Shown piece by piece: positions 6,777 through 27,254 of a stretch of 35,542 nucleotides of DNA (position 1 is the stretch's first letter; every line of letters begins with the position of its first letter). Source of the DNA: a bacterium. GTDB taxonomy: Bacteria > RBG-13-66-14 > B26-G2 > WVWN01. A program made the translations under genes and the position numbers. Below the pieces are notes generated by a model. It did no database searches. It worked only from the letters and a program-made list of their open reading frames with translations, and was not told the origin of the DNA. Location of the stretch: contig DATKVX010000044.1 of NCBI GenBank assembly GCA_035529855.1, positions 76,189 to 111,730 of the forward strand. The letters are read 5' to 3'.

Positions 6777-6800
6777 AAAGGCCGCCCGCAGGCGGCCTTT
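6777..6800 (-). terminator. Rho-independent terminator ending the Glt-like operon
   Basis: A 10-base-pair perfect stem (AAAGGCCGCC / GGCGGCCTTT) has a 4-base loop and is followed on the minus strand by a T-rich tract TTTTTATTAAAAT. It lies 20 bases past the stop codon of the GYF-domain gene. Confidence 0.9.
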
Positions 6801-6820
6801 CGCCAACTACCCAGGCGCGT

Positions 6821-8200
6821 TTACGCGCCCGCCGAGAAGAATACGAACGGGTACACGACCGTGACGTCCCCCGCGTCTATGGGCGGGAAGCGCCACGTCA
6901 TTATGCGGCCGCACACCTCTTGCTCCATGGCGGGATTACCCATCGTAGACGAGACGACCGAACACGCCGTTACGGCGCCGGAAGCGGCGATGGTAAACCG
7001 GACGACGATCTTCCCCTCCATCGTCGGGTTAGTCTTGAGGTACTTCTTGTAGATGTACTCGATGCCCGCCTTGCGCTGGTTCACGATGCGAGCTATGACG
7101 GCACTGGAGCGCAGGCTGTTGGTGGCTGCGGCGCCGGTAATGCCCGGCGGCGCAACCCGCACCCGGCCCTTCTTGATCTCGGTGCGGCCGACCCTCTTCG
7201 CCGTGCCGGCGAGCAAACCGAGGCCGGTACCGCCGCCGCCCAGGCCCAGCCCCGGCCCTCCGGGGCCGAAACCTCCGCCCGTCCCGCGACCCACCGTCCC
7301 GGAACCGCCGGTCTTAAGGCCCGCAATGTTGCCCGCTATAATGTCGAGGTCGCCGCCGGAGCCCATGAGGTCCGCCACCGAACCGTCGGAGCCCATGCTG
7401 GTAATAAGGCCGACGACGCCGACCGAGGCGTAGTCCTCGCCGCCCTGGCCGCCGCCCCCGCCGCCGCCTCCGCCGCCGGTGGTACCGGTACCGGGAGCGG
7501 ATATGATTTCTTCCGATTCGACGAGCGGCTCGAGCGGGACCTCTATCGGCTTATCCACCACCAGTTTGGCAACGCGACTCAGTACCTCCGCGGGCCGCAC
7601 TTCCTCCGGCTCGGGGACTTCCACGAAGCTCGCCGTGGTAATTACCAGGATATTGACGAGGAACATCGTCACCAGCGTCTTCAGGTAATTGCGGTCGTCG
7701 ACGCGAGACAGGTCGCGGCGCGCTTCCTTACGCCACGCGGGCATAACGGCGCGCTCGCGCTTTTCGGCCCCCTTGCCGACATCCTCCAGCTCCTCGCTCT
7801 CCTTCTCCAGACGGGCCTCTTCGACTTGCTCGCGGATCTGTTTGAGGAAGTAGGGGCTTAAAAACGAAACTTCTCCCGCCCGGGCCCAACGCCTTTCGTC
7901 CTCGAGCCAAATGAAATCCATGGCGTTAAACCGGCCCTCGCTTATAAGCCGAACGACCTCGTCCAGGTCCATGGGGCCGATGGTATCGGAACCTATGCGG
8001 ACGTGGTAGCTCACGTCCTTCTTCCCCAACGCCGCGTTCAAGAAGCCAAGCTCGGCGGCCCGAACCCACCCGCTCCGCTCCGGCTCCCAAACGTAATCGT
8101 CGCCGGTCAGCCGACCGTCTCGTACCCACCGGGTAACTTCCTCCGGCGCGAGCGGCCCGTAATTCTTCCCGTCAACGTGTATGAACAATTTTCCGGCCAT
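6821..8200 (-). CDS. GltJ/AgmX-like protein: two GYF domains, membrane span, AgmX/PglI C-terminal domain
   Basis: The protein has 459 residues. Two GYF_2-type domains occupy about residues 3-55 (YGPLAPEEVTRWVRDGRL) and 65-115 (IGPMDLDEVVRLISEGRF). A charged linker leads to one span near residues 175-195, so the N-terminus is cytoplasmic and the rest periplasmic. A long Gly-rich region follows, then a TonB-like AgmX/PglI domain from about residue 355, ending MTWRFPPIDAGDVTVVYPF. The same order occurs in Myxococcus GltJ (AgmX), which links the cytoplasmic platform to the periplasm in gliding. The N-terminal zinc ribbon of GltJ is not visible here. It is the last gene of the operon and ends at a terminator. 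An ordinary TonB is less likely because of the GYF domains and the absence of a Pro-rich linker. Confidence 0.85.
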   Translation of the reverse strand: MAGKLFIHVDGKNYGPLAPEEVTRWVRDGRLTGDDYVWEPERSGWVRAAELGFLNAALGKKDVSYHVRIGSDTIGPMDLDEVVRLISEGRFNAMDFIWLEDERRWARAGEVSFLSPYFLKQIREQVEEARLEKESEELEDVGKGAEKRERAVMPAWRKEARRDLSRVDDRNYLKTLVTMFLVNILVITTASFVEVPEPEEVRPAEVLSRVAKLVVDKPIEVPLEPLVESEEIISAPGTGTTGGGGGGGGGGQGGEDYASVGVVGLITSMGSDGSVADLMGSGGDLDIIAGNIAGLKTGGSGTVGRGTGGGFGPGGPGLGLGGGGTGLGLLAGTAKRVGRTEIKKGRVRVAPPGITGAAATNSLRSSAVIARIVNQRKAGIEYIYKKYLKTNPTMEGKIVVRFTIAASGAVTACSVVSSTMGNPAMEQEVCGRIMTWRFPPIDAGDVTVVYPFVFFSAGA

Positions 8201-8267
8201 ATCTTTGATTGGCCCGGCCCGTTACAGGGCCCGTTTATGCCACCTCTTTTACCTTTTCCCGGGCCGC

Positions 8268-8297
8268 CGGGCGGCGGCCCGCGGGGGCCGCCGCCCG
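8268..8297 (-). other. Strong intergenic hairpin between the two AgmX/PglI genes
   Basis: A perfect 13-base-pair stem (CGGGCGGCGGCCC paired with its complement) with a 4-base loop starts 9 bases after the stop codon of the FHA-domain gene. On the minus strand it is followed by an A-rich, not T-rich, stretch (GGGAAAAGG), so it lacks the terminator tail. It may protect the upstream mRNA or attenuate the last gene. Confidence 0.6.
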
Positions 8298-8306
8298 ACG
8301 CGTAAT

Positions 8307-9623
8307 TTACACTTCCGAGGCCACGAAGACGAACGGATAAACTACCGTCACGCTCCCCGTTTTAACGGGCGGGAACCGCCAACTACGTATCCGGGAGAGG
8401 ATGGAACCCGAAAGCGCCGGGGAATTCAGGGTATTGGTGATAATGCTGGCGCTACCCACCGAACCGTCCGCCGTTATGTTGAAGCGGACCGTTATCTTGC
8501 CGCTGCCCAACGTCGGGTTCTTCTTAAGAGCGGAGTTGTACGCGTTCTGGATGCCCACCAGGTGGCGACGGATTACGCTCGCGATGACCTGGGGCGACCG
8601 GTTGGCCTCGCCCGCGGCTTCGCCGCCCACCGACGATATCGTCCCCGAAACGGAGACCATCTTCTTCGTCAGCTTGCCGCCGGGGCCGCGGCCGGCGTAA
8701 CCGCCGCCCAGGCCCGCGATACCATCCATGCCGCCGCCCAGGCCGGTGCCGCCGGCGCCGCCGGCGCCCAGGCCGCCGCCCAACGCGCCGCCGCCGGCCG
8801 AGCCGCGTAAGCCGCCCAGGCGGTTGGCTATGCTGTCCAGGTCGCCGGAAGAACCGCCGGCGCCCAAGAGGTCCGCGATGGACCTACCCGAGCCGGTACC
8901 GAGCGTCGTAATCGCCGCGACGACGCCGGTCGTAGGGATACCCTCGCCGACGCTGCCGCCGCCACCGCGGCCACCGCCGCCGGTCCCTACGCCTTCGCCT
9001 TCGGCCTCGGTAACTATACCGACGCCCGTAGCCTCCGGGATCTCGAGTTTCGTCACGCGGCTAACGAGGTCCTCGACCTTGAAGCCCCTTTCCTCGATCT
9101 GAGCGTACTGCGAGCCGACCATGAAGGCCACCAATATGGCCCCTACCACGGCTAAGACCCGGTAGTAACGCACATTATCAGAGTCGAACCAAGTCCCGGT
9201 AGCCTCGTAACCGGGGCCGCGTTTGGGAACGACGACTTCCTTCGCCGAAAGCGGGGGCCGGTACGTGAACTCGAACGTAAGGCCGTCGGCCTCGACGTGC
9301 CCGGAACGGCCGCGTTGTATCGGGACGACGTACCGTCCGGCCTCGCGTTTTAAAAGGCCCAACGTCTTAAGATGCCCGAACGAGAGCATCTCGCCGTCGC
9401 CGCCGATTTCGCCGCGGTAATTTTCGGCCAACAACAATTCCGCGTCGCCGCTTTTGCCGATGCGGAATAAAACCGCGGATTTTTTACCACCGGCCGTAAT
9501 TACGTGGTCGGTGCGGGCCCCACCAATCGTCAGCCTATCCTCGACGTCGAAATCCTTCAGGACTCTACCGTCGCAGATAACGCGGAGCCCCAAGACTTGC
9601 TTCTTTGCTTTAACTGCAACCAC
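8307..9623 (-). CDS. GltG/PglI-like protein: FHA-like domain, membrane span, AgmX/PglI C-terminal domain
   Basis: The protein has 438 residues from the chosen start. The N-terminal ~125 residues look like a divergent FHA domain (DRLTIGGARTDHVITAGG), in which the usual GR is GG. One span lies near residues 160-178 (VRYYRVLAVVGAILVAFMVG). A Gly-rich linker follows, and then an AgmX/PglI TonB-like domain ending RSWRFPPVKTGSVTVVYPF. Myxococcus GltG (PglI) has FHA, span and TonB-like domain in this order. The linker shares a motif with the next gene (SIADLLGAGG...DLDSIA here, SVADLMGSGG-DLDIIA there), so the two are paralogues. The start is GTG at 9621-9623, seven bases after the anti-Shine-Dalgarno match AAAGGAGGTGAT. 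An in-frame GTG at 9633-9635 lies inside that site and cannot use it. Confidence 0.84.
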   Translation of the reverse strand: MVAVKAKKQVLGLRVICDGRVLKDFDVEDRLTIGGARTDHVITAGGKKSAVLFRIGKSGDAELLLAENYRGEIGGDGEMLSFGHLKTLGLLKREAGRYVVPIQRGRSGHVEADGLTFEFTYRPPLSAKEVVVPKRGPGYEATGTWFDSDNVRYYRVLAVVGAILVAFMVGSQYAQIEERGFKVEDLVSRVTKLEIPEATGVGIVTEAEGEGVGTGGGGRGGGGSVGEGIPTTGVVAAITTLGTGSGRSIADLLGAGGSSGDLDSIANRLGGLRGSAGGGALGGGLGAGGAGGTGLGGGMDGIAGLGGGYAGRGPGGKLTKKMVSVSGTISSVGGEAAGEANRSPQVIASVIRRHLVGIQNAYNSALKKNPTLGSGKITVRFNITADGSVGSASIITNTLNSPALSGSILSRIRSWRFPPVKTGSVTVVYPFVFVASEV

Positions 9624-9643
9624 CTTCGCAATCACCTCCTTTC
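9624..9643 (-). promoter_or_regulatory. Unusually long Shine-Dalgarno site fixing a start
   Basis: AAAGGAGGTGAT on the minus strand is a 12-base match to the usual 16S rRNA 3' end. It lies seven bases before GTG at 9621-9623 and overlaps a more upstream in-frame GTG, which argues for the downstream start. Confidence 0.75.
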
Positions 9644-9656
9644 GTCCGGATTCGAC

Positions 9657-10196
9657 CTAACGGTTTTTGAGAACGGCCAGCGAAATTTCGCCGTACTCCG
9701 CCCGGCCGCAGGTGTACATCACCCGTTTGAGCAATTCGAAGGTTATCAGCTTGTCGCCTTGGATGATGACCTCGCCGCGGAACTCCTTACTTTCGTCCAG
9801 CTCGGCGATGGCCCGCTTCAAGTCGGCTATGCGCACCATCTCTTCGTAAAGGCCGTCGATGACGAGGTCGGGGTCCTTCAGCGCTTCGTCCGCGCCGGCG
9901 ACCTTCCTGCCCTCGACGACGATGGACTTGTTCGTTACGGCGACGATGACCGATTGCGTGGGCTTATTCTCCACCCGCGCTTCGGGGAGCGTCAGGTCCG
10001 GCGCGATCGACATAATGTCGCCTTCGGCCGAGAAGTTCTGGAAAAGGAAAACGACCAGGATGACGAAAGTATCAATGAGCGAAACGAGCATAAGGCGGGC
10101 TTCCCTCTTGCGCCCTTCCTCGGCCCGCTCCTTCATCCGCACGTTCAGGCGGCCCAGCGTTCCTTTCTCTTGTATTTTGCTCGCCTGTTTGGCCAT
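9657..10196 (-). CDS. TolR/ExbD-family motor subunit (second copy)
   Basis: The protein has 179 residues: a basic cytoplasmic N-terminus of about 35 residues, one span (MLVSLIDTFVILVVFLF) and a periplasmic ExbD/TolR domain. Asp42 in the span sits where the proton-carrying Asp of ExbD and TolR lies. No OmpA-type peptidoglycan-binding domain is present, which separates it from MotB. The start is ATG at 10194-10196 with AGGTGAGAC upstream. It lies 30 bases after the other ExbD gene. One TolQ plus two different TolR proteins matches the AglR-AglQ-AglS motor of gliding myxobacteria. It probably uses proton flow to drive the two AgmX/PglI proteins encoded next. Confidence 0.87.
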   Translation of the reverse strand: MAKQASKIQEKGTLGRLNVRMKERAEEGRKREARLMLVSLIDTFVILVVFLFQNFSAEGDIMSIAPDLTLPEARVENKPTQSVIVAVTNKSIVVEGRKVAGADEALKDPDLVIDGLYEEMVRIADLKRAIAELDESKEFRGEVIIQGDKLITFELLKRVMYTCGRAEYGEISLAVLKNR

Positions 10197-10226
10197 GTCT
10201 CACCTACTTTCCGCGCGGGTAAACGT

Positions 10227-10700
10227 TTACTGCGTGATTTGGCCCGATAACGCGATGTCCGGGAAACCTTCCACAACGCATACGTCCATCGCATGGATGA
10301 TGTTGTCGTAAACTATCTCCGGTTCCGAGATAATGATTATCGACTGTTGGTCGCCGTACTCCTTCTTGACGTCCTTGAGTGTTTCGGTCAACTTATCCCA
10401 GTCGAACTTGTCTCTCTTCTTGGGGATGAGCGGCAATATTGCGCCCGCGCCGCCGACGCGCAATCCCTCGTCCGTTATTATCAGCGAGAGGTTGAGTTCG
10501 CCGGCCTGGGGCGTCATCGCGCTCTCTCCCGTGGGTCCCGTTGTGGTCGGTAGCGAGATCTCGATTACCGCGGTTTGGAGAAGCGACGCCGACATCAACA
10601 AAAAGCAGCAGCACACCACCAACATGTCGATGAACGGCACGAGCTCCGGGTCTTCCCAAACTTCGCGGCGCTTTATCCTCTTCTTGGGAGCGAATGCCAA
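10227..10700 (-). CDS. TolR/ExbD-family motor subunit (first copy)
   Basis: The protein has 157 residues: a short basic N-terminus, one span starting LVPFIDMLVVCCCFLLMSAS and a periplasmic domain. Asp25 in the PFIDML motif is the conserved proton-carrying residue of ExbD/TolR. The start is TTG at 10698-10700: an in-frame stop lies just upstream and AAGGAG lies ten bases before it. An ATG a few bases further upstream is in another frame. The sequence is clearly different from the second copy, so the two may have distinct roles, as AglQ and AglS do. Three cysteines in a row inside the span are unusual. Confidence 0.87.
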   Translation of the reverse strand: MAFAPKKRIKRREVWEDPELVPFIDMLVVCCCFLLMSASLLQTAVIEISLPTTTGPTGESAMTPQAGELNLSLIITDEGLRVGGAGAILPLIPKKRDKFDWDKLTETLKDVKKEYGDQQSIIIISEPEIVYDNIIHAMDVCVVEGFPDIALSGQITQ

Positions 10701-10735
10701 AGGCCATCAACTCCTTACGTTACGCTCGGCCGAAA

Positions 10736-11374
10736 TTACAGCTTGCCTTCGTATTCCGCCAGCGCGTTGATGATGGGGACCATGCTGGCGTCGATGTCGT
10801 TGTTGATGCGCGTCACCCGGCCCTGGAGCATGCCGTATACGACCAGCGACGGGATGGCGACGATCAGGCCGAAGGCGGTGCAGTTCATGGCTTCCGAAAT
10901 ACCCTCGGAAAGCATCGTCGCCTTCTCGGCCGCGGAAGCGCCACCCAGCGCGGCGAAGGTCTTGATCAGGCCCGTAATGGTCCCCAGCAGGCCCAATAGA
11001 ACGGCGACGTTGCCCAGCATGGCCAGGTAGGGCGTCCTCTTGTCGAGACGGGGCAGCTCCGAAAGGCTGGCCTCGTCCACCGCGTCCTGCACGTCGCGCA
11101 TGCTGCCGCCGGCCGCGGACAACGCCGCCCGCGTGATGCGGTAGAGCGCCGCGTCGGAACGGTTCGACAGCGCCTTGGCCTGTTCGACCTTCCCCTGTTT
11201 AATCATGTTGAGTACTTCGCGCGTGAACCGCTCGGCGTTGACGTTCGACTTTATGAAGACGAACCATACGCGCTCGATAATAATCGAAATCGCGAATATG
11301 CCCGTGACGAGGATGGGATGCATCCCCCAGCCGCCGGCGCGATAGTGCTCCGCTAAGAAATTGAAAGCTTCCAT
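10736..11374 (-). CDS. TolQ/ExbB/MotA-family motor protein
   Basis: The protein has 212 residues and three hydrophobic spans, near residues 17-37, 118-140 and 160-182. The family signature is LLGLLGTITGLIKTFAAL in span two, where TolQ and ExbB carry the conserved Thr. GISEAMNCTAFGLIVAIPSL leads into span three. Members form the pentameric inner-membrane channel that converts proton flow into movement of the ExbD/TolR dimer. The start is ATG at 11372-11374, with AAGGAG and a closer TAAGGT upstream. It is followed by the two TolR genes. Without TolB, Pal or a TonB receptor nearby, it is better read as an AglR-type motor than Tol-Pal or iron uptake. Confidence 0.9.
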   Translation of the reverse strand: MEAFNFLAEHYRAGGWGMHPILVTGIFAISIIIERVWFVFIKSNVNAERFTREVLNMIKQGKVEQAKALSNRSDAALYRITRAALSAAGGSMRDVQDAVDEASLSELPRLDKRTPYLAMLGNVAVLLGLLGTITGLIKTFAALGGASAAEKATMLSEGISEAMNCTAFGLIVAIPSLVVYGMLQGRVTRINNDIDASMVPIINALAEYEGKL

Positions 11375-11449
11375 ACCTTACGTACTCCTTTCGTTAACCT
11401 TCACCCGTCGACTCGACCTCGTCTTGCGCCCGCGAGCGAAGCGGTTTTC

Positions 11450-11977
11450 TCACTTCGCGGCCCGGGCGCGGCCACGGTCGATTAAAACCAATATCAAGGC
11501 CGCGGTGGCGGCGGCGCCCGCGCTTACGCCGTAAACCTTAACCTGGGCCCACTCCTCGTTATATGCCTGATATCCGGCCGCGGCACCGGTAGTGGCCGCG
11601 GTAGCGACCGCCATCCAAAGGAGCGGGTTCTTGACGTAGTCGAACTTGGATTCCTTGATCGCGCGCTCGAACTCTTCCTTGTCGATAGGCCGCAGGATGT
11701 CGTCCCAGAAGTCGCGGGCGAAGCGAACCGTCTTGAAGTCGGGCTGCTGGCGCTTGATGAAAAGCGCGACCGGCCTCTCGAGCCGCCCCTCGATGACGAC
11801 CTCTTTGAACACGTACTCCCCCTCTGCGGTGCGCTCGGCCTCGACGCCTGCCTCTTCCTTGATCTCGGCCTTGCCTTCCCCGCCCGCCTCCTCCTGGGCT
11901 AAAGCGGGCGCCCAACCGAAAGCCAACGCCGCTATAATTATAACCGCAAAACCCTTTGTTGGCAAGTTTTTCAGCAT
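11450..11977 (-). CDS. Small exported membrane protein of the Glt-like operon, function unknown
   Basis: The protein has 175 residues. It begins with a signal peptide or anchor (FAVIIIAALAFGWAPALAQ). A Glu/Ala-rich stretch follows, and then a compact domain, residues about 55-100, with VVIEGRLERPVALFIKR and FKTVRFARDFWDDILRPID. Two hydrophobic segments close the protein (residues about 117-135 and 147-166). I do not recognise a named family with certainty. The 'IEG...RP..LFI.R' pattern resembles short proteins that sit beside TolQR/AgmX genes in deltaproteobacteria (recalled, not searched). Its place directly before the motor genes suggests a motor- or platform-associated part. The start is ATG at 11975-11977; GGGGG upstream may be the ribosome site, and it can pair with CCCC before it in a small hairpin. 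Confidence 0.7.
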   Translation of the reverse strand: MLKNLPTKGFAVIIIAALAFGWAPALAQEEAGGEGKAEIKEEAGVEAERTAEGEYVFKEVVIEGRLERPVALFIKRQQPDFKTVRFARDFWDDILRPIDKEEFERAIKESKFDYVKNPLLWMAVATAATTGAAAGYQAYNEEWAQVKVYGVSAGAAATAALILVLIDRGRARAAK

Positions 11978-12031
11978 TTTTTTAGACCCCCGTCAGGGGA
12001 ACTCGGTTACGGGCAACCTGCCGCTTCTAAG

Positions 12032-15000
12032 CTAGAACTCCTCGCCCAGCGGCTCCTCTTCGGCCTCCGTCTCGGCGTCGAATTCCTCCGGCGTCCCGAC
12101 GGCCTCGAAGTCTATCTCGCCGCTGGTCTCAACTTCATAACCTGCGCCCTCACCTTCGCCGGGCACCGGCAGCGCCTCTTCCTCGCCTTCGCCGGGGGCC
12201 GGCAGCGTTTCTGCTTCACTTTCGCCGGGGGCTTCGAGTTCGCCTTCCGTAGGCGTGCCGGCCTCGGGAGTAGGTTCTTCCGGCGTAGGTCCGGCTTCCT
12301 CGAGCGACGGCGCTTCCTCTACCGGCGTAGGCGTCGGTTCGCCGAACTCCTCCTCCGTCGTCGGCGCGCCGAACTCGCCGCCGGTCTCGCCGAACTCGGC
12401 CTCCTCACCCGGCACCACCGGCAGTTCGCCTTCGCCCTCGGGCGCCGCCCACTCCTCCATCGGCATCTCGCCCTCTTCGGGCTGAGCGCCGCCGAATTCC
12501 TCGGGCAGGCCCGTCTCCTCGAACGCCGGCTCGGGCGAGGGGAAGCCGCCCTCCGGCACGAGGGCGAAGTTGAGGCCGTACGAGTCGTCGCGCTCGCGCG
12601 TGACCTCGACGCACACGACGTTGTCGCCGAGGTGGAGGGCGCTCGAGACGTCGTACGTATCCGGCTTGACCCACGGGTTTTCGGCGTAAACGTCGGTTTG
12701 GCCTATCAGCGTCCCGTTGACGTAGAGTTTGTAGGGGCCGCGGCTCTGGATGACGGCCTCGTAATTCGCCGGGTCGTAGGTGAAGGAGAAACTCTTGCGG
12801 AAGTAAACGGTTTCGTCCGCGGGGCCGCCCCAAATGGTCGTCGGTTCGCCCGGGACGCGGGCGACCACCTTCTCCTCGTCCTTCTCGCGCCAGCCGCTCG
12901 TGCCGGCGGGGGCCCACATAGCGGCGTCGTAATTGGCGTCGAGCCAACCGTCCTCGTAGACGTTGGACACGACCCAACCCGTGTCGCTGGTGAAGCCCTG
13001 CATGCCTACGTCCTCGTACTTGACGACTTCGTACGGCCGGATGAGCAGGAGCTGGTTGTAGGCCTTGCGCGACCACTCGGAGTCAACCCGGGCCGCCTCG
13101 GCCACGTTGACCGCCTCGCCGTACTCCATTACGGCCTTCTCTTCCAACGGTATCGCCTGCTCCTCGAGGCCGGCGGTATAATCGTAATAGGCGTTCTCGA
13201 GGAGGGGCTTACGCGGGTCGTCGTCGGGTAGCGCCTCCCAGTATTCGGGCTGGAGCTCTTGGGGTATCTCGGCGTTGCGCAGCGTATCGCGGAAGGAGAG
13301 GTAGACGTCGGCCATGCGGCAGTGGGCGGCCACCGCCCACTTCGGGACGCCCAGGCCGGCGACGTCGGTGTAGCCGGCGATGAGGTCCTGAGACTGCTTG
13401 ACCTTCTTCTGGAGGTTGGCCTCCATCACCTTCTGCGGCATTACGAACTGGATCTCCGCGTAGTCGTCGAACTTGGCGTCGGTGACTTTAAACTCCGCCT
13501 CTGCGACGTACTTCTCGGTCCCGCCGATATCGAAGCCCTGCTCGGACGAAACTTTATATATGGCGACGACTTCCTTATGACGCTCGAGGGCTTCGGCCTC
13601 GCGGCCGAGCTTCTCCTCGGCGCGGGCCTGGCGGAAGGTCGCCTCGAGGCGCGGTTGGGCCTCTTCGGGGTATTCCTCCACGAACCGGGCGAAGGTATTG
13701 GCGGCGCGCGTCCAATCTCCCTGCTGCTCGTACATCAGGCCGGCGCGGAACAGCGAATCCCGACCCAGGGCGGTGGTCTTGTATTCGGGGTATTCGGCGA
13801 TTTGCATGTAAGCCGCGGCGGCGGCGCCCCAATCCTCTTTCCGCTCGTAACACTCCGCGGCTTTCTCGTACGCCATCTTGAGGTCGTCGGCCTTGGGGTA
13901 CTCCTTTATATACTCCGTGTACACGCGGGCCGCGTTGTCCCAGTCGCGGATCTTATAGTAGGTATCGGCGGCTTTACCGAGGCTCAGCCGGCCGACGTCG
14001 GCCCCCTTGTGGTCGGCGGCGTTGGCCTCGTACGCCTGGGCTTCGGCCTGCTTGGCCGCGAACGCCGAGGCTTCAATGGGCGGTAGGGCCGGATATATGA
14101 CGACGAAGTCTTCGTATTCGGCTTCCTCGAGAAGATCCGGCTCGATGGTGGGCTCCTCGATGGCTTCGATGGCGATGCCGGCGCCCTTCATCTCCGCGGC
14201 CTTGAGGCCCGTCAAGCCGGACAGGCTCTTGGCGCGCTCGCTCGTTTCGCTGACGCCCCGGTCCTTGGCCTCGCGCTCGGTCCGGGCGTACCACTGTTTA
14301 GCCAGGGCGTAGTTGTCCTCGGCCGTTTCGTACGCGCCGGCCTTCTCGTAAAACTCCGCCTCGTTGAAGTACGACTTCGCGATGCCCTCGGCGGCGTTCA
14401 CGTAAAGCTGGTTGTGGTCCTTTTGCTTTTCGGCGTCGAGGGCGGTGGGGTACCTGTCGACCAGCTTGCCGTACGCCTCGCGCGCGCGATCGTAGTCGTA
14501 GACGTAGAAATACACCTCGCCCACCTTCGAGAGAACCGTCGGCACCTCGGAGCTTTCGGGGTACTTGTCGACGAAGGCGTTGCAGGCGCGGACGAGGTTG
14601 GCCTCGTTCAAGGTCAGCGATTGCACCGGCATCTCGATGGGGCCGTAGGTTACGAGGCCGTTGGTAGCCTCGGCGCCGGCCGCCGCCGGGGGCTCGGGCG
14701 CGGTTTTCTCCTCCTTGGAGCTCTCGACGTCTCCCTGGAAGATCTCGTCGTACGAGACTATGGCGCTGTAGAGAGATAGTTTCTGGGTGAACTTCTCGTC
14801 CCACTTTTCTATCTTGTACCGTTCGCGGTCGGTGTAGCCCAGCGCCGTCTTCTGGTACTGGTCGCCCGCGTTCGCGAAATCGCCAGCGTTGAAATAGGAT
14901 TCGGCCAGATAGAAATTAACGTGGTACGCCTTCTCGTTGGTGGGGAAAGAGGCCAGGTACTGGTTGTAGCGGTTGATAGCCTCCCGGTAAAGCTCTTTCG

Positions 15001-16339
15001 CTTCCTCGGGATGGGTCCCGATCTTGCTCTCTGCCTGCATGTTGAAGTAAACCGCGACCCCGTAAAGCGCGTTCTCCCAACGCTGCAGCGCCTTGTGGCG
15101 GACGTCGAGGTCTTCCTGGTTCTCGTACCACGCCGAGCCCGGGCCGTAGCCGTCGACGATGCGGACACGGGTCGTGTGGGCATTATCGTAATCCTCCTCG
15201 CGGAGGTAGCACTCCACCAGCGAGTCCAGCACCTCGGGCGCGCGGTCATAGTCGGGGTAGTACTCCAGTACCGCCTCGTAGGCCGTAGCCGCGGCCTTCA
15301 GCTTATCCTGCCTGTAGAGGTAGACGTCGCCCAATTCTTGCAGAACTTCGGGCGAATAGTCGCGTTCCTTGCCGCCGCGGAACTCTTCGCCGTAGTGGCC
15401 TACGGCCTTCGCGATGGCGGTCTCGTCGTTGGGGTCGCTCGACCACTCGGTCAGCGAGATGGCGGCAAACTCCATCGCCTCTTCGGTCAACACCGACTGC
15501 CTCCCGGAACTCTCGATAAGTTCGGTGAAGGCGTCGATGGCCTTCTGGTACTCGATAGAGGAGATGCCGATGTCGCCCTGGTTGTAGAACGCCCACCCCA
15601 TCTTGTAGAGGGCCTTATCGTAGAAGTCGGGGTTGGTATCGGGGACCAGCGCGTAATACTTCACGGCCTTGTCGAACTCGTACTGGTCGAAGAAGTATTC
15701 GCCGATGCGGAAGTACGCCTCGGGCACGAACTTGGATTCGGGGTAAAGCTGGGTGAGCTTGTAGAGGGTCCGCGCGGCCTCTTCATCTTCGAATTGGGCT
15801 TTGAGGCAGTAACCCAGGCCGTAATAGGCCACGTCGGCGTACGGGAAATCCTTGTACTTGAGCGCGATCTGCTGGTAGGCGGCGATGGTCTTCTCGTAGT
15901 GAGGTTCGGGCTCGGGCTCGGTGAATATCTCTCCCCCTTCGCCCGCGGTCTCGAGGCGCAACTGGTAGTCGTCGAGCGCCGTGACGTGTTCCTCCTCGGA
16001 GCGCTCGAGGTAGAGCTCGCCCAGCGCAATAAGGACGTCCGGCGTATACGGGCTTATGGGATACTTGCCCACGAACTCCTCGTACTTCCGGACGGCCTCG
16101 TTGCGCCGCTGGCGCTCCTCGGTGGCGAGCTTACCGGTTTTGCCCATCCGCTCGGACTCCAGCTCGTCGAGCTCCTGCTGGCGCTCGGCGATCTTCTCCT
16201 GGAGTTCCTCGATAGCCACGTCTTCCTTGGCTATGGAGTCCTCGCGGGTGATGACTATTTCTTTGGGCTTGCAGCCGACCGCGGCAAAAATACAAATCGC
16301 GGCCGCCGCCAACGCGCCGCTGTACTTATTAGCATTCAT
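12032..16339 (-). CDS. Giant TPR lipoprotein with inserted jelly-roll domain (GltD/AgmU-like)
   Basis: The protein has 1435 residues. The N-terminal export signal ends in AVGC, a workable lipobox, so it is probably an envelope lipoprotein. A short coiled coil (residues about 35-75) precedes about a thousand residues of TPR units of the YbgF/outer-membrane assembly type, such as YKDFPYADVAYYGLGYCL. Residues about 1105-1265 form a predicted beta domain (TVYFRKSFSF, YKLYVNGTLIG, LHLGDNVVCVEV) like the sugar-binding jelly roll of glycosidases. The last ~165 residues are Pro/Glu/Gly-rich. Long periplasmic TPR proteins such as GltD/AgmU are parts of the Myxococcus gliding machine. The start is ATG at 16337-16339 after AGGGTGAT; a GTG three codons earlier lies inside that site. 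Confidence 0.82.
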   Translation of the reverse strand: MNANKYSGALAAAAICIFAAVGCKPKEIVITREDSIAKEDVAIEELQEKIAERQQELDELESERMGKTGKLATEERQRRNEAVRKYEEFVGKYPISPYTPDVLIALGELYLERSEEEHVTALDDYQLRLETAGEGGEIFTEPEPEPHYEKTIAAYQQIALKYKDFPYADVAYYGLGYCLKAQFEDEEAARTLYKLTQLYPESKFVPEAYFRIGEYFFDQYEFDKAVKYYALVPDTNPDFYDKALYKMGWAFYNQGDIGISSIEYQKAIDAFTELIESSGRQSVLTEEAMEFAAISLTEWSSDPNDETAIAKAVGHYGEEFRGGKERDYSPEVLQELGDVYLYRQDKLKAAATAYEAVLEYYPDYDRAPEVLDSLVECYLREEDYDNAHTTRVRIVDGYGPGSAWYENQEDLDVRHKALQRWENALYGVAVYFNMQAESKIGTHPEEAKELYREAINRYNQYLASFPTNEKAYHVNFYLAESYFNAGDFANAGDQYQKTALGYTDRERYKIEKWDEKFTQKLSLYSAIVSYDEIFQGDVESSKEEKTAPEPPAAAGAEATNGLVTYGPIEMPVQSLTLNEANLVRACNAFVDKYPESSEVPTVLSKVGEVYFYVYDYDRAREAYGKLVDRYPTALDAEKQKDHNQLYVNAAEGIAKSYFNEAEFYEKAGAYETAEDNYALAKQWYARTEREAKDRGVSETSERAKSLSGLTGLKAAEMKGAGIAIEAIEEPTIEPDLLEEAEYEDFVVIYPALPPIEASAFAAKQAEAQAYEANAADHKGADVGRLSLGKAADTYYKIRDWDNAARVYTEYIKEYPKADDLKMAYEKAAECYERKEDWGAAAAAYMQIAEYPEYKTTALGRDSLFRAGLMYEQQGDWTRAANTFARFVEEYPEEAQPRLEATFRQARAEEKLGREAEALERHKEVVAIYKVSSEQGFDIGGTEKYVAEAEFKVTDAKFDDYAEIQFVMPQKVMEANLQKKVKQSQDLIAGYTDVAGLGVPKWAVAAHCRMADVYLSFRDTLRNAEIPQELQPEYWEALPDDDPRKPLLENAYYDYTAGLEEQAIPLEEKAVMEYGEAVNVAEAARVDSEWSRKAYNQLLLIRPYEVVKYEDVGMQGFTSDTGWVVSNVYEDGWLDANYDAAMWAPAGTSGWREKDEEKVVARVPGEPTTIWGGPADETVYFRKSFSFTYDPANYEAVIQSRGPYKLYVNGTLIGQTDVYAENPWVKPDTYDVSSALHLGDNVVCVEVTRERDDSYGLNFALVPEGGFPSPEPAFEETGLPEEFGGAQPEEGEMPMEEWAAPEGEGELPVVPGEEAEFGETGGEFGAPTTEEEFGEPTPTPVEEAPSLEEAGPTPEEPTPEAGTPTEGELEAPGESEAETLPAPGEGEEEALPVPGEGEGAGYEVETSGEIDFEAVGTPEEFDAETEAEEEPLGEEF

Positions 16340-16409
16340 ATATATCACCCTGGTTTAGACCGGCCGCGCGCCGATATCTTTTAACCGGCGGGGCGGCTTG
16401 CAAGGGTTT

Positions 16410-18335
16410 TTATTCCTCGAATTCCTCGCCGCTCTCGGCCCCCGGCTCCGGCAGCTCCTCCTCGACGGCTTCGCCGGCGCCGCTTTCTTCAGCGCCCTCG
16501 GCCGCTCCGCCCTCTTCGCCGGACGCCTCTTCAGGCGGCGTTTCAGCGGGAGCCTCCTCGGGCGTTATTTCCTCGGGCGGCGTTTCGGCGGGAGCCTTCT
16601 CGGGCGTTATTTCCTCGGGCGGCGTTTCGGCGGGAGCTTCCTCCGGCGCGAGCCCCGGTTCGCCCTCGCCCGCCCCGGGCGTTACGGTCGGCGCGGGCGA
16701 CACGTACGTGGGCCGGTAGACGCCGGTCTCGCCGGGTTCGGCGGAAGTCTGTTCGGATATGACGTTGTACTTCTGGATCTCGCGCCGGTATATTTGCTCG
16801 GGCGTCTCGAGCTGTTCGTCCTTCTGGCCTATTATGATCTGTTCCTTGCGGAGCTCGTGGATGTGGACCTCTTTCTCGAAGCGCGTCTTCTCTTCGCGTA
16901 TGGCTCCCAGTTTCTCGACCATTACCTCGTCGTACGATAAGAGCTCCTTCTCCACCTCCTGGGCTCCGCGGAAGGAGATAGTCGCGAGGCCGTAATCAGC
17001 ACCCAGCATAACGTTGCCGCCGGTGATGGAGCGGCCGGTGAACCAGAGCTCGAGGTCGTTGAGGTCTTCGACCAGGCGGTTGACCTCCTGCTGCTCGAGC
17101 CGGACCTGCGCCTGAACGTCGGAGCGGCTTTTCTCCTTGGCGATTTTATTGAGCTCCTGGAGGGCGGTACTTACGCGTTTGACGTTCTCGACTTCGGCGA
17201 TGATGCCTTCCAGGATCTTGGCCACCTGGGGGTCGCCGGCGAATTCCGCGGCGAGCGAGAAGTTATTGACGACGTACTCGTACGTATTTATGGCCTGGTC
17301 GTATTTACCTTGCCCCAGATAACAATGCGCCAGCGTCAGCCACGCTTCGGCGTAGACTTCCGACCCCTCCATATGGTCGGTGATGCGTTTCATCAGGCCC
17401 CCGGCGCGCCGGAAATGGCCGTCGGCCTTGCCCTCGTCCTCCTCCTGCTCGGCGCGTTTGACTTCGACCCAACCCAGGCCGAATACGGCGTTGTCGTAAT
17501 TGGCCGAGTCCCGGCTCGAGACGTTGTTGAATTCGTCCTCGGCCTCGTCGTACCGCCCGGCCTGGTAATGGAGCTGGCCGAGGGTAACGTGGGCTTTACC
17601 CGCCAGCGTGCGGCCGAGCGGGGACTTGTGTTTAATGCGGAAAATATTCTCGAGCTGGCCTATAGCCCTTTCGACGCCTTTCTCGAGGTCGTTGTCGCGC
17701 ATCCCCTCGCGGAGGTAACAGAGCGCGAGCGAATATTGGCCGAAGCCGTAGTATTCGCTCTCGTTGGGGATGTCCGTAAACGTCCTCTTAGCGTTTTCGA
17801 AATCGTTTATACTGTAGAACGCTAGGCCCGCGAAATACCGGGCGCCGTCGACGTCGGGCGAGTTGGGGTAATTCCGGATGAGCTGTTCGTAGTAACCCAC
17901 CGCGGCGTTGTAGCGCTCCATCTTCAAACTCGAGAGCTCGAGGCGGTATAGCGAGCGCGGTACGTATTCCGTTTGGGGGAAATTTTTTAGGATGCGGTTG
18001 AAGGCCGAAGCGGCGTCGGTATACATGCCGGCCTGGTAATAAGCCTCCCCCATCATGAAGGTCGCGCGGTCGACTTTGGAGAAAGAGGGGTAGAGGAGGA
18101 CGACTTCCTTGAATTTCACCGCGGCGTCGTAGTATTTCTCGCCCTTGAAAAGGCGGTACGCGCGTTCGTAGGCCGTGGAAGCCAGCGCCTCGAACTCCTT
18201 GAACTTCTTACCCTTGCGGAGTTCTTCGGCGTATTCGCCGGTGATTTCGTCCGCAGCCCCCACGCGGCCTACGAAAGCGAAAGTCACCACGACTAGCGCG
18301 ACAGCGGCTATACCTACCTTGCTTGGCATAATCAT
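16410..18335 (-). CDS. Exported TPR protein with coiled coil and Pro/Glu repeat tail (GltE/AglT-like)
   Basis: The protein has 641 residues. A signal peptide (VGIAAVALVVVTFAFVGRVGA) has no lipobox. TPR units run from about residue 40 to 370, for example YYDAAVKFKEVVLLYPSFSK and YTDAASAFNRILKNFPQTEY. A helical, probably coiled-coil segment (about 375-530) follows, and then a Pro/Glu-rich tail with a 14-residue repeat. The protein is likely periplasmic or surface-linked and a scaffold. In Myxococcus, the TPR proteins AgmU and AglT belong to one gliding complex, and here two TPR genes are also adjacent. Two ATG codons (18335 and 18329) are possible starts, and neither has a strong ribosome site. 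Confidence 0.8.
   Translation of the reverse strand: MIMPSKVGIAAVALVVVTFAFVGRVGAADEITGEYAEELRKGKKFKEFEALASTAYERAYRLFKGEKYYDAAVKFKEVVLLYPSFSKVDRATFMMGEAYYQAGMYTDAASAFNRILKNFPQTEYVPRSLYRLELSSLKMERYNAAVGYYEQLIRNYPNSPDVDGARYFAGLAFYSINDFENAKRTFTDIPNESEYYGFGQYSLALCYLREGMRDNDLEKGVERAIGQLENIFRIKHKSPLGRTLAGKAHVTLGQLHYQAGRYDEAEDEFNNVSSRDSANYDNAVFGLGWVEVKRAEQEEDEGKADGHFRRAGGLMKRITDHMEGSEVYAEAWLTLAHCYLGQGKYDQAINTYEYVVNNFSLAAEFAGDPQVAKILEGIIAEVENVKRVSTALQELNKIAKEKSRSDVQAQVRLEQQEVNRLVEDLNDLELWFTGRSITGGNVMLGADYGLATISFRGAQEVEKELLSYDEVMVEKLGAIREEKTRFEKEVHIHELRKEQIIIGQKDEQLETPEQIYRREIQKYNVISEQTSAEPGETGVYRPTYVSPAPTVTPGAGEGEPGLAPEEAPAETPPEEITPEKAPAETPPEEITPEEAPAETPPEEASGEEGGAAEGAEESGAGEAVEEELPEPGAESGEEFEE
16534..16648 (-). 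repeat. 42-bp in-frame tandem repeat
   Basis: Units start at 16534, 16576 and 16618, the last partial. Each encodes 14 residues of the type PAETPPEEITPEKA in the tail of the TPR protein. Unit-to-unit differences are few, which suggests recent expansion by slippage or unequal crossing over. Confidence 0.9.
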
Positions 18336-18392
18336 GTATCCGATAATATCGAACCGCCGCGTTTACGCGTAGCGCGGCCGGCCGGCGAAAAT

Positions 18393-19421
18393 CTACGGCC
18401 CCATCAATTCTTCGCGGATCTCTTCGACGCGCTGCTCCAAGATCTCACGGCGTTGACGCGCTTGTTTGAGCCTCTCCTCGGCGCGCTTGAGCCGCGAGCG
18501 CAGCGCGCGCAGCCGCTCGGTCTCGGCCTTGCGGTAGAGCGGCCCTACGTAAAATTGGACCGCGATGCCGCCTTTGGGCGAGTCGTACTCGTCGTCGTAC
18601 GTAATCCCGTGCGGGTACGCGGGGGAAGGTTTGGTGGAGGTAGTAGGCGCGCCCCACCACGCCTCCTCCAACTCCGAGACGTAGGGCGTGACTACGAAGC
18701 CCCACGGCAACTTGAACCTGGCGCCCAGATTCAGGTCGCGGCCGTCGACTTCTCCGATTATGGAGATCCTCTCGTCGAGGAAGTGGTATTCCACGGACCC
18801 GAACATCCCCTGCCACGGTTTCGAATGCGGCCAGCGGGGGTCCGTCCCCTGGAAGCGCGCGGCGCCGACGCCGGCGTTGATCGTTATGGGCACGCGTATG
18901 ATGTTGCGCATGTTTTTGCTGGCGACGATGTAATAAGCATTGTCCTGGCGGTCCCGGTCGGAATACCAGGCCGAGTTCTCGCCGTACGGGCCTATGTCGT
19001 GGTCGCCTCCGACGTTGAAAATGCCGGCCGCTACCGCGGGCCACCGGGAGCTTTCCTTCTTAATCAACACCTTGGCGTTCCCGACGTACTTGTCGGGGGT
19101 ATACTCTCTGACGCCGAGCTCAAGCCGCCCGAATAGCCCGATCTGGAAGAAGGCGTCCAGCTCCCTCAGGTTCTTATTTATTTCCGGATAATACCACTTG
19201 CCCTGATCGTTCTTCAGAGGGTCGCGTCTGTAGGACGTGATCTCGCCGGCCGTAACGGCATAACTGGAGACGCCGATGTTGAATTGCGTGTTCTCCATAA
19301 CGTACGCGTTGGGGGTATCGAGCACGCCGTTCTGAACATCCACGCCCGCCAGCGCCGGTACCGCCGCTACGCCGACGATACAAATCGCCGGCGCGATACG
19401 TATTCCCGTTAAACAGCCCAT
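18393..19421 (-). CDS. Outer-membrane beta-barrel-like protein with C-terminal coiled coil
   Basis: The protein has 342 residues. A signal peptide (about residues 1-25, ending PALAG) is followed by alternating, aromatic-rich beta segments typical of a barrel: FNIGVSSYAVTAGEI, LDAFFQIGLFGRLELGVREY, GGIAVQFYVGPLYR. From about residue 298 the chain is a highly charged helix (RLRALRSRLKRAEERLKQAR), probably a coiled coil. Barrel proteins normally end with the last strand, so a helical tail is odd; it may reach into the periplasm. It is the first gene after the strong promoter and is probably the outer-membrane part of the machine, as porin-like Glt proteins are in Myxococcus. The start is ATG at 19419-19421. 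A YjbH-like exopolysaccharide porin is an alternative. Confidence 0.7.
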   Translation of the reverse strand: MGCLTGIRIAPAICIVGVAAVPALAGVDVQNGVLDTPNAYVMENTQFNIGVSSYAVTAGEITSYRRDPLKNDQGKWYYPEINKNLRELDAFFQIGLFGRLELGVREYTPDKYVGNAKVLIKKESSRWPAVAAGIFNVGGDHDIGPYGENSAWYSDRDRQDNAYYIVASKNMRNIIRVPITINAGVGAARFQGTDPRWPHSKPWQGMFGSVEYHFLDERISIIGEVDGRDLNLGARFKLPWGFVVTPYVSELEEAWWGAPTTSTKPSPAYPHGITYDDEYDSPKGGIAVQFYVGPLYRKAETERLRALRSRLKRAEERLKQARQRREILEQRVEEIREELMGP

Positions 19422-19475
19422 AACGTTAGTCTTTCGCTTTGGAATTAAAAGATTCCTTTACAAACCACCTTTAAC

Positions 19476-19504
19476 ATTATAGTCGTTAAACCGCCAAGTG
19501 TCAA
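19476..19504 (-). promoter_or_regulatory. Consensus sigma-70 promoter of the Glt-like operon
   Basis: On the minus strand, TTGACA (19499-19504), a 17-base spacer and TATAAT (19476-19481) match the consensus at all twelve positions. The leader to the first ATG is about 50 bases. No operator-like repeat is obvious, which points to strong constitutive expression of the nine genes. Confidence 0.9.
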
Positions 19505-24891: not shown

Positions 24892-25959
24892 ATGAACAAA
24901 TACTTTTTACTGGCGGGCTTGATGCTCGTGCTTTGTACGGCGGGCGCCGTACCCGGAAATAATCCGGCCTCGCCCGTAACCGCGGCGGACGCGCTCGGCG
25001 TCGGGCCCCTGCCGCTGGGGCCGCTCCCGGCGGTAACGGCTCCCGCGACTAACCCGCAAGATAACGCCAAGATATTCCTCGGCAAACAGCTTTACTTCGA
25101 CCCGCGGCTCTCGGCGGACGGCACCGTAAGTTGCGCCACGTGCCACGACCCGGCCCACGGCTGGTCGGACGCGGGGCCCACCAGCGAAGGCATCGCGGGC
25201 CAAATGGGCGGCCGGCGCGCGCCGCCGGTATCGAACGCGGCATACCATCCTCTCCAATTCTGGGACGGCCGCGCCGCGAGCCTGGAGGAACAGGCCATCG
25301 GCCCGATAGCGAACCCGGTCGAGATGGGCTTTACCCACGACGCTTGCGTCGCCTGCCTCGAGGGGATACCGGCGTATGTCGGCGCCTTCCGCGACGTCTT
25401 CGGGACGCCGTATATCACCATCGAACAGGTGGGCCAGGCGATCGCGGCCTACGAGCGCACCGTCGTCACCACGGATTCGCCTTTCGACCGCTACGCCAGG
25501 GGAGAAAACTCGGCGCTTACGCCCCTGGAGCGCCAAGGCCTCGAGGTCTTCAACGGCAAGGGGCACTGCACCTCCTGCCACTGGGGCCCGAATTTCTCGG
25601 ACGGCCGCTTCCATAATCTGGGCGTCCCGCAGACGGGGCCGCTCGCGAGCGACGACGGCCGCTACGAGGTGACGAAGAACCCGAAAGACAAGGGCGCGTT
25701 CAAAACCCCCACGGCGCGGGACGCGGGCGCCCGGCCGCCCTACCTGCATACCGGCGGCGAGAAAACCATCGAGGACGTAATCCGGTTCTACAACCAGGGC
25801 GGCGGCGCAAACCCGAACCTCGACCCGTTGATGGTCCCGTTGGGCCTCTCGGAACGCGAAGTCGAAGCGCTCGTGGCCTTCATCGAACACGGCCTGGCCA
25901 GCCTCAACGCCGAAGTGGCAAACGAACCCGGCATTCCCGCCGACCAACTTCCCCGGTAA
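24892..25959 (+). CDS. Diheme cytochrome c peroxidase (CcpA/MauG family)
   Basis: The protein has 355 residues: a signal peptide (LLAGLMLVLCTAGAVPG), then the two-domain CCP fold. Heme one is CATCH at residues 81-85, preceded by LGKQLYFDPRLSADGTVSC. Heme two is CTSCH at 226-230, after LERQGLEVFNGKG. FWDGRA, NPVEMG and PPYLHTGG are typical of the family. The enzyme normally reduces hydrogen peroxide in the periplasm with electrons from a small cytochrome; MauG relatives oxidise other substrates. ATG at 24892 follows GAGGAGGTG. It lies 11 bases before the cytochrome-porin gene, so electron exchange between the two products is likely. Confidence 0.93.
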   Translation: MNKYFLLAGLMLVLCTAGAVPGNNPASPVTAADALGVGPLPLGPLPAVTAPATNPQDNAKIFLGKQLYFDPRLSADGTVSCATCHDPAHGWSDAGPTSEGIAGQMGGRRAPPVSNAAYHPLQFWDGRAASLEEQAIGPIANPVEMGFTHDACVACLEGIPAYVGAFRDVFGTPYITIEQVGQAIAAYERTVVTTDSPFDRYARGENSALTPLERQGLEVFNGKGHCTSCHWGPNFSDGRFHNLGVPQTGPLASDDGRYEVTKNPKDKGAFKTPTARDAGARPPYLHTGGEKTIEDVIRFYNQGGGANPNLDPLMVPLGLSEREVEALVAFIEHGLASLNAEVANEPGIPADQLPR

Positions 25960-25970
25960 AGGAGGACGAT

Positions 25971-27254
25971 ATGGGAAAAATGAATATAAGGAGCGCCGTC
26001 CTCGTCGGGGTATTGCTGCTGTCGGCCCCGGCGGCGCTGGCCATCCCGGCGTTCGCCCGGAAAACCGCGTTCAACTGCGCCATGTGCCATACGGCGTTCC
26101 CGAAGCTGAACGACTTCGGCCAGCGCTACCGCGACTCGGGTTACCAACTCCTCGGGCAAGAGGGTACCGAGAAAACGGTCTTCGACACGGCCGCGCCGCC
26201 CATCGCCCTCCGCACCACCCCGGTCGTAACGGTATACAACGCCACCCAACCGGACCAGGGCCAAGGGGAAGTTAAGGGCACGACTTCCGGCTTCAACGTA
26301 GCCGGCCTCGACCTCCTCGCCGGCGGCCTTCTCCACAAAAACATATCCGCCTTCTTCGTCTATACGCCCCGGCTGGACTTCCCCGCCGTGTACGGCGCCG
26401 TCGGCAGCGTACCCGAGCCGTCGCAGTTGGGCTCGTTGGAGTCAGCCAACGTCGTCTTCTCGAATATCGTACGCCGGGCGCTAAACGTCCGCGCCGGAAG
26501 GTTCGAACCGGCGTATTGGCCGATATCTCCCCGCCGTTCCTACTTCATTTTCCAACCCTACGAGATATACGACTTCGGCGGCGCCTCGGCCCTTCCCTAC
26601 GGCGAAAACCAATTAGGCCTGGAGGCCACGGGCCACTTCCGCAACGGCTTCAAGTACGGCCTGGGCGTAGTCAACGGCACCGGCGGTTTCGCGGACAACA
26701 ACGTCAACAAGGACGTATACCTTAACGTACTCAAGGTATTCGGCCCGGGCGACGGCCAAAGCTCCGGCCAGGCGGTAGGCCTCTTCGGGTACTACGGCTG
26801 GCAGCCGACGGCTTTCGACTCGCCCATCGTATCGCCGTGGGGCGAGCTGGACGGCGGCGCAAACAAGCCGGTGTATCGCCTGGGCGGCGACGTCAGCCTG
26901 AACTGGCAAACGCTCAACCTGCGCGCCCTCTACTTGCAGGGCTTCGACGACATGGCCTTCAACGCCGCCGCGCCGACCGAAGACTACAAATATTCCGGCG
27001 GCTTCGCGGAACTGGATTGGGCGACGTTGGCGAACAATAAGCTCGTCGCCGGCGTGCTGTACAACTGGGTTGCGCCTCCCTCCTCCGATGAGAGCTCGAC
27101 CGTGGTCTCGTACGCCGGCCTCGCCCGCTACTACCTGGGCGACTGGAAAGCGGTGAACGTCGCGCTCCACGCCGAATACGCCTACCGGAAAACCGGTAAG
27201 GCCGACGCGGTCAAGGAGAATATAACCGGCGCCGCGATCGACGTCGCGTTCTAG
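25971..27254 (+). CDS. Cyc2-like fused monoheme cytochrome-porin
   Basis: The protein has 427 residues. After a signal peptide ending about Ala24, a short cytochrome segment carries one heme site, CAMCH at 36-40, in the context ARKTAFNCAMCHTAFPKLN and FGQRYRDSGY. The remaining ~360 residues are beta-rich with alternating aromatic patterns (LNVRAGRFEPAYWPISP, YKYSGGFAELDW) and end in IDVAF, with a terminal Phe as in outer-membrane barrels. This layout, an N-terminal heme plug on a porin, is that of Cyc2, the outer-membrane iron oxidase, and of relatives with unknown donors. ATG at 25971 follows AAAGGAGG at five bases. Partnership with a CCP peroxidase is the unusual feature. The direction of electron flow cannot be read. 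Confidence 0.82.
   Translation: MGKMNIRSAVLVGVLLLSAPAALAIPAFARKTAFNCAMCHTAFPKLNDFGQRYRDSGYQLLGQEGTEKTVFDTAAPPIALRTTPVVTVYNATQPDQGQGEVKGTTSGFNVAGLDLLAGGLLHKNISAFFVYTPRLDFPAVYGAVGSVPEPSQLGSLESANVVFSNIVRRALNVRAGRFEPAYWPISPRRSYFIFQPYEIYDFGGASALPYGENQLGLEATGHFRNGFKYGLGVVNGTGGFADNNVNKDVYLNVLKVFGPGDGQSSGQAVGLFGYYGWQPTAFDSPIVSPWGELDGGANKPVYRLGGDVSLNWQTLNLRALYLQGFDDMAFNAAAPTEDYKYSGGFAELDWATLANNKLVAGVLYNWVAPPSSDESSTVVSYAGLARYYLGDWKAVNVALHAEYAYRKTGKADAVKENITGAAIDVAF

Follow-up and report, generated by a model that had tools for sequence, protein, structure and literature searches.

Can a complete proton-driven envelope machine of the Agl–Glt type be encoded at one locus outside the known gliding bacteria, and what would such a machine move? 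Nine adjoining genes in a 35,542-nucleotide stretch of DNA (the window; G000:C44:76189-111730), taken from the 2.6 Mb genome of an uncultured Candidatus Coatesbacteria, raise the question. A first-pass annotation, made from the sequence alone, had read them as an Agl–Glt-like machine outside known gliders, distinct from Tol–Pal and ExbBD. With the TolQ trees and the AgmX and GYF profile matches in hand, we regard membership of the Agl–Glt/Nfs class of machines as close to certain. The machine is indeed present outside known gliders, but it is not new in kind, because a 'core complex' of AglRQS and Glt parts outside gliders was published in 2011 from Gammaproteobacteria, Geobacter and Fibrobacter (Luciano et al. 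2011, PMC3169522) and is common across many phyla here, its layout recurring in KSB1, Calditrichota, Nitrospirota and others. What is new, within the literature searched, are features of the variant: a single-locus motor in which both TolR subunits keep the proton aspartate (Asp/Asp), two transducers, a union with polysaccharide genes, and a new phylum. We lean towards an Nfs-like role for this machine, in which it would move or deploy surface polysaccharide, rather than towards gliding.

A nine-gene operon in Coatesbacteria

By its TolQ, the window's nearest named records are Candidatus Coatesbacteria bin961 (97% identity) and, from another class of the phylum, Coatesbacteria RBG_13_66_14. 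We compared the window genome (G000) with members of the same genus (G001 to G003, the TolQ of G001 being 96% identical), with a genome from another Coatesbacteria family (G004) and with further families of the phylum (f3, f4 and f5). Coatesbacteria went unnamed in the literature that we found on gliding or TolQ, in a search without most subscription journals.

All nine open reading frames proposed in the first pass lie where it had placed them, on the minus strand from 19421 down to 6821 with intergenic gaps of 21–106 bp. In 5' to 3' order they encode a barrel (P0009), a tetratricopeptide repeat (TPR) protein (P0008), a large TPR lipoprotein (P0007), a small exported protein (P0006), TolQ (P0005), two TolRs (P0004 and P0003) and two spanning proteins (P0002 and P0001). 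A sigma-70 consensus promoter, TTGACA-17-TATAAT (19476..19504, minus strand; 12/12 consensus match), stands 83 bp upstream of the barrel gene, and the exact consensus recurs 67–86 bp 5' of the starts of the barrel orthologues in G002, G003 and G004; because it is kept there, the operon probably starts at this site. Nine co-oriented genes behind a conserved promoter agree with the single operon first proposed, although the transcription unit probably extends further, since the GT39 and MurA genes upstream and the Wzz and Wzy genes downstream run in the same direction, separated by no more than 148 bp. Between P0001 and the Wzz and Wzy genes that follow it (gaps of 148 and 12 bp) nothing resembling a terminator was seen, so these two may be co-transcribed with the machine. 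Scans for tRNAs and Rfam families gave no match. Comparison of gene neighbourhoods showed the nine-gene order to be kept within the genus; it persists across the phylum too, either whole or split in two.

An AglR-type motor with both aspartates

The motor genes encode a TolQ/AglR-type subunit (P0005, 10736..11374; MotA_ExbB 3e-28) and two different TolRs, one AglQ-like (P0004, 10227..10700; ExbD 2e-14) and one AglS-like (P0003, 9657..10196; ExbD 3e-12). Both proton aspartates noted in the first pass, Asp25 of P0004 and Asp42 of P0003, fall in TolR transmembrane helices. When 72 TolQ proteins were placed in a careful maximum-likelihood tree, every Tol/Exb row (TolQ and ExbB of E. coli, plus additional TolQ/ExbB copies from the genomes of Coatesbacteria and Myxococcales) split from every core and AglR row with support 100/99, and P0005 groups with the AglR-type motors, not with Tol–Pal or siderophore ExbBD. 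A placement of the window class as sister of Myxococcales AglR, which drew a support of 85 in a quick tree, was unsupported in the careful one, and we describe the class simply as near AglR. Grouping the window class with the Tol/Exb rows gave p 0.60 in an approximately unbiased (AU) test, a value that does not count against AglR-type membership because the test asks only whether the window class is the deepest core-side branch. Monophyly of all Coatesbacteria TolQ proteins was neither supported nor rejected.

Across the family, the proton aspartate of the AglS-like TolR is invariant (98/98 rows, and also all 102 distinct rows). At the AglQ-like TolR the pattern differs: each of the 66 distinct sequences without Asp (58 with Asn, 6 with Ser, 2 with Gly) carries a proline at position +7, which occurs in 0 of the 36 distinct sequences that retain Asp (Fisher p 2e-28, on rows that are related to each other). 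Independent events were few, since just three state changes at this site suffice on the tree. The Asp/Asp rows comprise Myxococcales AglRQS and their second motor, Bdellovibrionota, a few others and the window's Coatesbacteria class; most core complexes are of the Asn/Ser/Gly type with Pro at +7, and the sister Coatesbacteria class carries Gly or Asn with the proline. The literature searched held no report of this two-type pattern.

M. xanthus needs the proton site of AglQ in order to glide (PMC9120999), and whether AglQ and AglS join AglR as hetero- or homodimers has been called unsettled in review (PMC9389320). Because most relatives lost the proton Asp only in the AglQ-like subunit, always with Pro at +7, while that of the AglS-like subunit is invariant, the two subunits are not interchangeable, and this natural loss opens a direct genetic test of AglQ versus AglS roles. 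More speculatively, and as an idea that we think could easily prove wrong, the Agl/Glt family might use proton motors of two mechanisms: one of Asp/Asp type, and one with a single Asp, in which the AglQ-like subunit has Asn, Ser or Gly with a kinking proline and only its partner axle subunit carries protons. On that view the locus in the window would be a complete single-locus Asp/Asp machine that couples FHA-fold and GYF-type transducers to polysaccharide export, that is, to motor-assisted surface polysaccharide deployment.

Two transducers, one with a GYF pair

The two spanning proteins share a plan of N-terminal domain, transmembrane helix, Gly-rich linker and TonB-C/AgmX domain. P0002 (8307..9635; NCBIfam AgmX/PglI 1e-25) is GltG-like with an FHA-fold domain, and P0001 (6821..8200; TonB_C, AgmX/PglI 4e-28) has a GYF–GYF pair (GYF_2 2e-19, two repeats); against the NCBIfam AgmX/PglI C-terminal model, with its cut-off of 40 bits, the two proteins score 97 and 89 bits. 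The first-pass description of P0001 as a GYF–GYF/span/AgmX-PglI protein is therefore matched by both profiles. For P0002, described as FHA-like/span/AgmX-PglI, the AgmX/PglI part holds at the profile level and the FHA part at the level of fold, but the Pfam FHA profile matched neither P0002 nor its clearer relative L038. Among the outcomes that the first pass had named as refuting its reading, this missing profile match is the only one that was observed. An AlphaFold2 model from 26 homologues has a confident sandwich at residues 12-126 and a second confident domain at 325-441, with a helix (152-177) and then a disordered Gly-rich stretch between them. Foldseek returned FHA domains (5djo, probability 1.00) and TonB-C domains, and with E-values of 0.007-0.02 the fold call leans on the consistency of these matches, not on any one of them. 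In sequence, the N-terminal domain matches residues ~214-346 of true GltG (2e-9 to 2e-8), which form the second, FHA-like domain of that protein. Its match to the first, canonical FHA of GltG, identified by Pfam in L159, is weak; that canonical domain is absent from P0002, which scores 98 bits against the GltG equivalog (cut-off 650).

P0001 has the domain order of GltJ, whose counterpart it was first taken to be, but descent from GltJ is disfavoured. Among 142 spanning proteins, sampled through TolQ, AgmX and GltG/GltJ matches and so not a census, GYF domains occur only in Coatesbacteria and in Myxococcales GltJ. GltJ carries a zinc ribbon that P0001 lacks, and P0001 scores better against GltG (92 bits) than against GltJ (44 bits). 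In a tree of AgmX domains, GltJ forms its own clade (96) apart from the Coatesbacteria rows, and P0001 falls among GltG-like rows; an AU test rejected, though weakly, a forced grouping of GltJ with the Coatesbacteria GYF rows (p-AU 0.048 when all GYF rows were included and 0.088 with those of class 1). Judged from sequence, the likeness of P0001 to GltJ is probably one of convergent assembly, and this second, GYF-bearing transducer of the phylum is probably no orthologue of GltJ.

Further AgmX/PglI proteins are encoded elsewhere in G000 (L072, at G000:C100:3443-4756; L070, on G000:C66; L071, on G000:C60) and in G004 (L069). L072 is another GYF-span-TonB_C protein and L069 a TPR-span-TonB_C fusion of 539 aa; no motor gene was found beside any of the four.

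Envelope components

P0006 (11450..11977), first described only as a small exported membrane protein, is indeed exported and proves to be a GltF/CglF homologue (CglF is GltF; PMC4488436). Although P0006 itself lies under the CglF equivalog cut-off (NCBIfam CglF 2e-4), a hidden Markov model (HMM) of its Coatesbacteria family recovers at 2e-6 a true Myxococcales CglF (L158:1153-1431), itself above the cut-off (142 bits against 90; 5e-42). Relatives in KSB1, Calditrichota and others are likewise located between the TPR genes and TolQ. The family shares a conserved motif, IxIxGxLxKPQ, with G64 in at least 90% of alignment rows and P69 in all of them. A TonB-box similarity has been remarked for GltF in review (PMC9389320) and possible TonB boxes have been described for GltAB (PMC5349195); the motif is TonB-box-like and may serve as one. 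The 2011 study confined both GltF and GltJ to Myxococcales and Bdellovibrionales (PMC3169522). For GltF these sequence matches overturn that restriction: it belongs to a widespread cluster and is not the late addition in the Myxococcus line proposed that year.

The two large exported TPR proteins anticipated in the first pass both match TPR families. P0008 (16410..18335), at a GltC-like position, gives a local match of 6e-11 to the GltC model, far under its cut-off; P0007 (12032..16348) is a GltD-like lipoprotein, and an HMM of its class picks out, at 3e-27, the TPR protein that takes the place of GltD in a true gltDEFG locus. No separate GltE gene lies between P0007 and P0006 in the window; in family f5 a short TPR gene occupies the corresponding spot.

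P0009 (18393..19421), predicted from the start to be an outer-membrane barrel, is modelled by AlphaFold2 as an exported ~12-strand beta-barrel with a C-terminal periplasmic coiled coil, and FapF is its best Foldseek match in the PDB. The family is present in 7/7 Coatesbacteria genomes searched. Searched against seven Myxococcales genomes, its profile was undetected in five and gave marginal matches in the other two, to the C-terminal coiled coil only; at the sequence level the barrel thus appears to have no detectable kinship to the Myxococcales barrels of those seven genomes.

A polysaccharide-export setting

The genes around the machine, of which the first pass made no use, provide the best functional clue. 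Directly downstream, in all four genomes of the genus, lie genes for a tandem Wzz-type chain-length protein (P0013, 4816..6672, minus strand; Wzz 9e-9), probably co-transcribed, and for a Wzy/O-antigen-ligase membrane domain fused to TPR repeats (P0012, 577..4803, minus strand; Wzy_C 9e-10 plus TPR). On the other side are a PMT/GT39-type glycosyltransferase with a TPR tail (P0011, 20831..22735, minus strand; PMT_2 1e-11), a short Wza-type outer-membrane polysaccharide export (OPX) protein (P0024, 23235..23921, plus strand; Poly_export 2e-20, SLBB) and a Wzc-type polysaccharide tyrosine autokinase (P0020, 32025..34397, minus strand; GNVR plus AAA; TIGR01007 2e-54, above cut-off). P0012 and P0011, both on the machine's strand, each end in a C-terminal TPR fusion. 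P0024, the only Wza-type protein of G000, has 228 aa and no outer-membrane-spanning domain; short OPX proteins of this type work with a partner barrel (PMC9601211, PMC9603273).

The sole Wza gene of G000, G002 and G003 lies ~4-6 kb from the barrel gene, and G001 keeps the same order up to the first TPR gene (TPRsm), after which its contig ends. In G004, Wza, MurA, the barrel and both TPR genes stay together with the same promoter, and GltF, motor and transducers lie 1.5 Mb off. Families f3 and f4 have the barrel–TPR–TPR part separate from the motor part, with Wza elsewhere; f5 has all machine parts together, without Wza. Outside the phylum, Wza or Wzc lies within ~10 kb in 7/62 core loci, and also at L050, at L052 and beside G041:C49. 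In M. xanthus, the gltD homologue MXAN_1922 (PMC3169522) is near, by locus number, to the OPX gene wzaB (MXAN_1915) and to wzpB (MXAN_1916; PMC7310880, PMC9603273).

What the machine may move

From the observed domain make-up, homology, conservation, gene order, motor class and export-gene linkage we infer an assembly, a path of force transmission and a cargo. TolQ and the two unlike TolRs, both with the proton Asp, would form an inner-membrane motor that powers a pair of TonB-like transducers, which differ in their cytoplasmic parts (an FHA-fold domain in the first, two GYF domains in the other). In the periplasm, the TonB-C domains of both would extend through the wall and make cyclic contact with three kinds of partner: the GltF-like protein, the TPR proteins and the barrel of the outer membrane. 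The cargo would most likely be surface polysaccharide from the adjoining Wzz/Wzy/Wza/Wzc pathway, in the manner of the Agl–Nfs machine, which moves the spore-coat polymer (PMC3858216).

Several points weigh against this reading. The core loci linked to Wza or Wzc outside the phylum are a minority and partly interrelated, and within the phylum a polysaccharide cargo is not established throughout, because f3, f4 and f5 keep the machine without Wza linkage. The barrel model is of low confidence (mean predicted local distance difference test score 60), and the GltC and GltD assignments of the TPR proteins are weak, since TPR repeats match widely.

The strongest competitor, which we judge a good deal less probable yet worth taking seriously, is a true gliding motor in which an MglA/MglB polarity switch directs a machine that propels the cell, the polysaccharide being slime to push against. 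The Asp/Asp motor is of the AglRQS subclass, GltF and two transducers are present, and Luciano et al. suggest that possession of AglRQS together with GltD, E, F, G, C, A and B marks a bacterium as a potential glider (PMC3169522). The search for mglA and mglB that the first pass had called for found both types in G000, outside the window: MglA occurs at 66-71% identity in 14/14 Coatesbacteria genomes (67% for the G000:C7 copy), and at G000:C7:5766-8044 (L232) mglA adjoins an mglB-like Roadblock (Robl_LC7) gene and a DUF4388 gene. MglA is found as well, however, in the sister Coatesbacteria with the other motor subclass; GltE, GltI, GltH and GltK were not seen beside the window operon; and neither a Myxococcales-related barrel nor a GltJ orthologue is discerned on present data. 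A zinc-ribbon/AAA/TPR protein of 1092 aa adjoins the mglB–mglA–DUF4388 group. NF033763, tried as a gliding regulator, proved to be a TraB model whose matches were confined to OmpA domains.

We consider it improbable that the machine is one lineage's version of the general core complex and serves an envelope function other than polysaccharide, such as moving or placing an outer-membrane lipid or protein, the Wz genes being chance neighbours in one order. KSB1, Calditrichota, Gammaproteobacteria and other Coatesbacteria do have the same layout with no Wz genes; against chance, the Wza/Wzc linkage recurs in other lineages, and the link of Wza to the outer-membrane half survives in G004 even though the operon is split there. 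A Ton- or Tol-type system, for import through an outer-membrane receptor or for outer-membrane attachment during division, would account for the TonB_C domains, the TolQ/TolR subunits and YbgF/CpoB-like TPR matches, but it is largely refuted and very unlikely, given the separation of the window TolQ from every Tol/Exb row, the occupation of that branch by other TolQ/ExbB-type genes of the same genomes (L073, L197 and L199), and the fact that neither Pal nor TolB nor a TonB-dependent receptor was seen in those window genes that were examined.

Relation to known machines

Like the core complex of 2011, the window holds in one cluster an AglR-type TolQ, two TolRs, a GltG-type transducer and GltC/GltD-type TPR proteins; it differs in adding a GYF transducer, in having no separate GltE and in keeping the AglQ-like Asp, which most core complexes replace. 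With the Myxococcus Agl–Glt system (AglRQS, GltA-K) it shares an Asp/Asp motor, GltG- and GltF-like parts, a GYF transducer, a barrel, TPR proteins and MglA/MglB-type genes in the genome. There, however, the genes occupy three clusters, here a single operon; the window's GltG-like protein is without the canonical first FHA, its GYF transducer, lacking the zinc ribbon, is probably not GltJ by descent, and its proteins miss all the equivalog cut-offs by far. The Agl–Nfs spore-coat machine with its Exo (MASC) export genes (PMC3858216) likewise combines an Agl-type motor, Glt/Nfs envelope parts and a Wzx/Wzy-type polysaccharide pathway, whereas in the window motor, envelope parts and polysaccharide genes form one physical locus. 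Tol–Pal and ExbBD–TonB share the logic of a TolQ/TolR motor with a TonB-C transducer, but use TolB–Pal or TonB-dependent receptors where the window has TPR and barrel partners, and the window has another motor clade, two unlike TolRs and cytoplasmic FHA-fold and GYF domains.

The locus thus presents a machine tied to polysaccharide export outside Myxococcota, and its compactness makes it suited to reconstitution. Elsewhere in the window, plus-strand positions 24892-27254 contain what seems to be a di-haem cytochrome c peroxidase-like gene with CxxCH motifs, followed by a gene whose exported product has a barrel-like appearance and a CxxCH-like motif.

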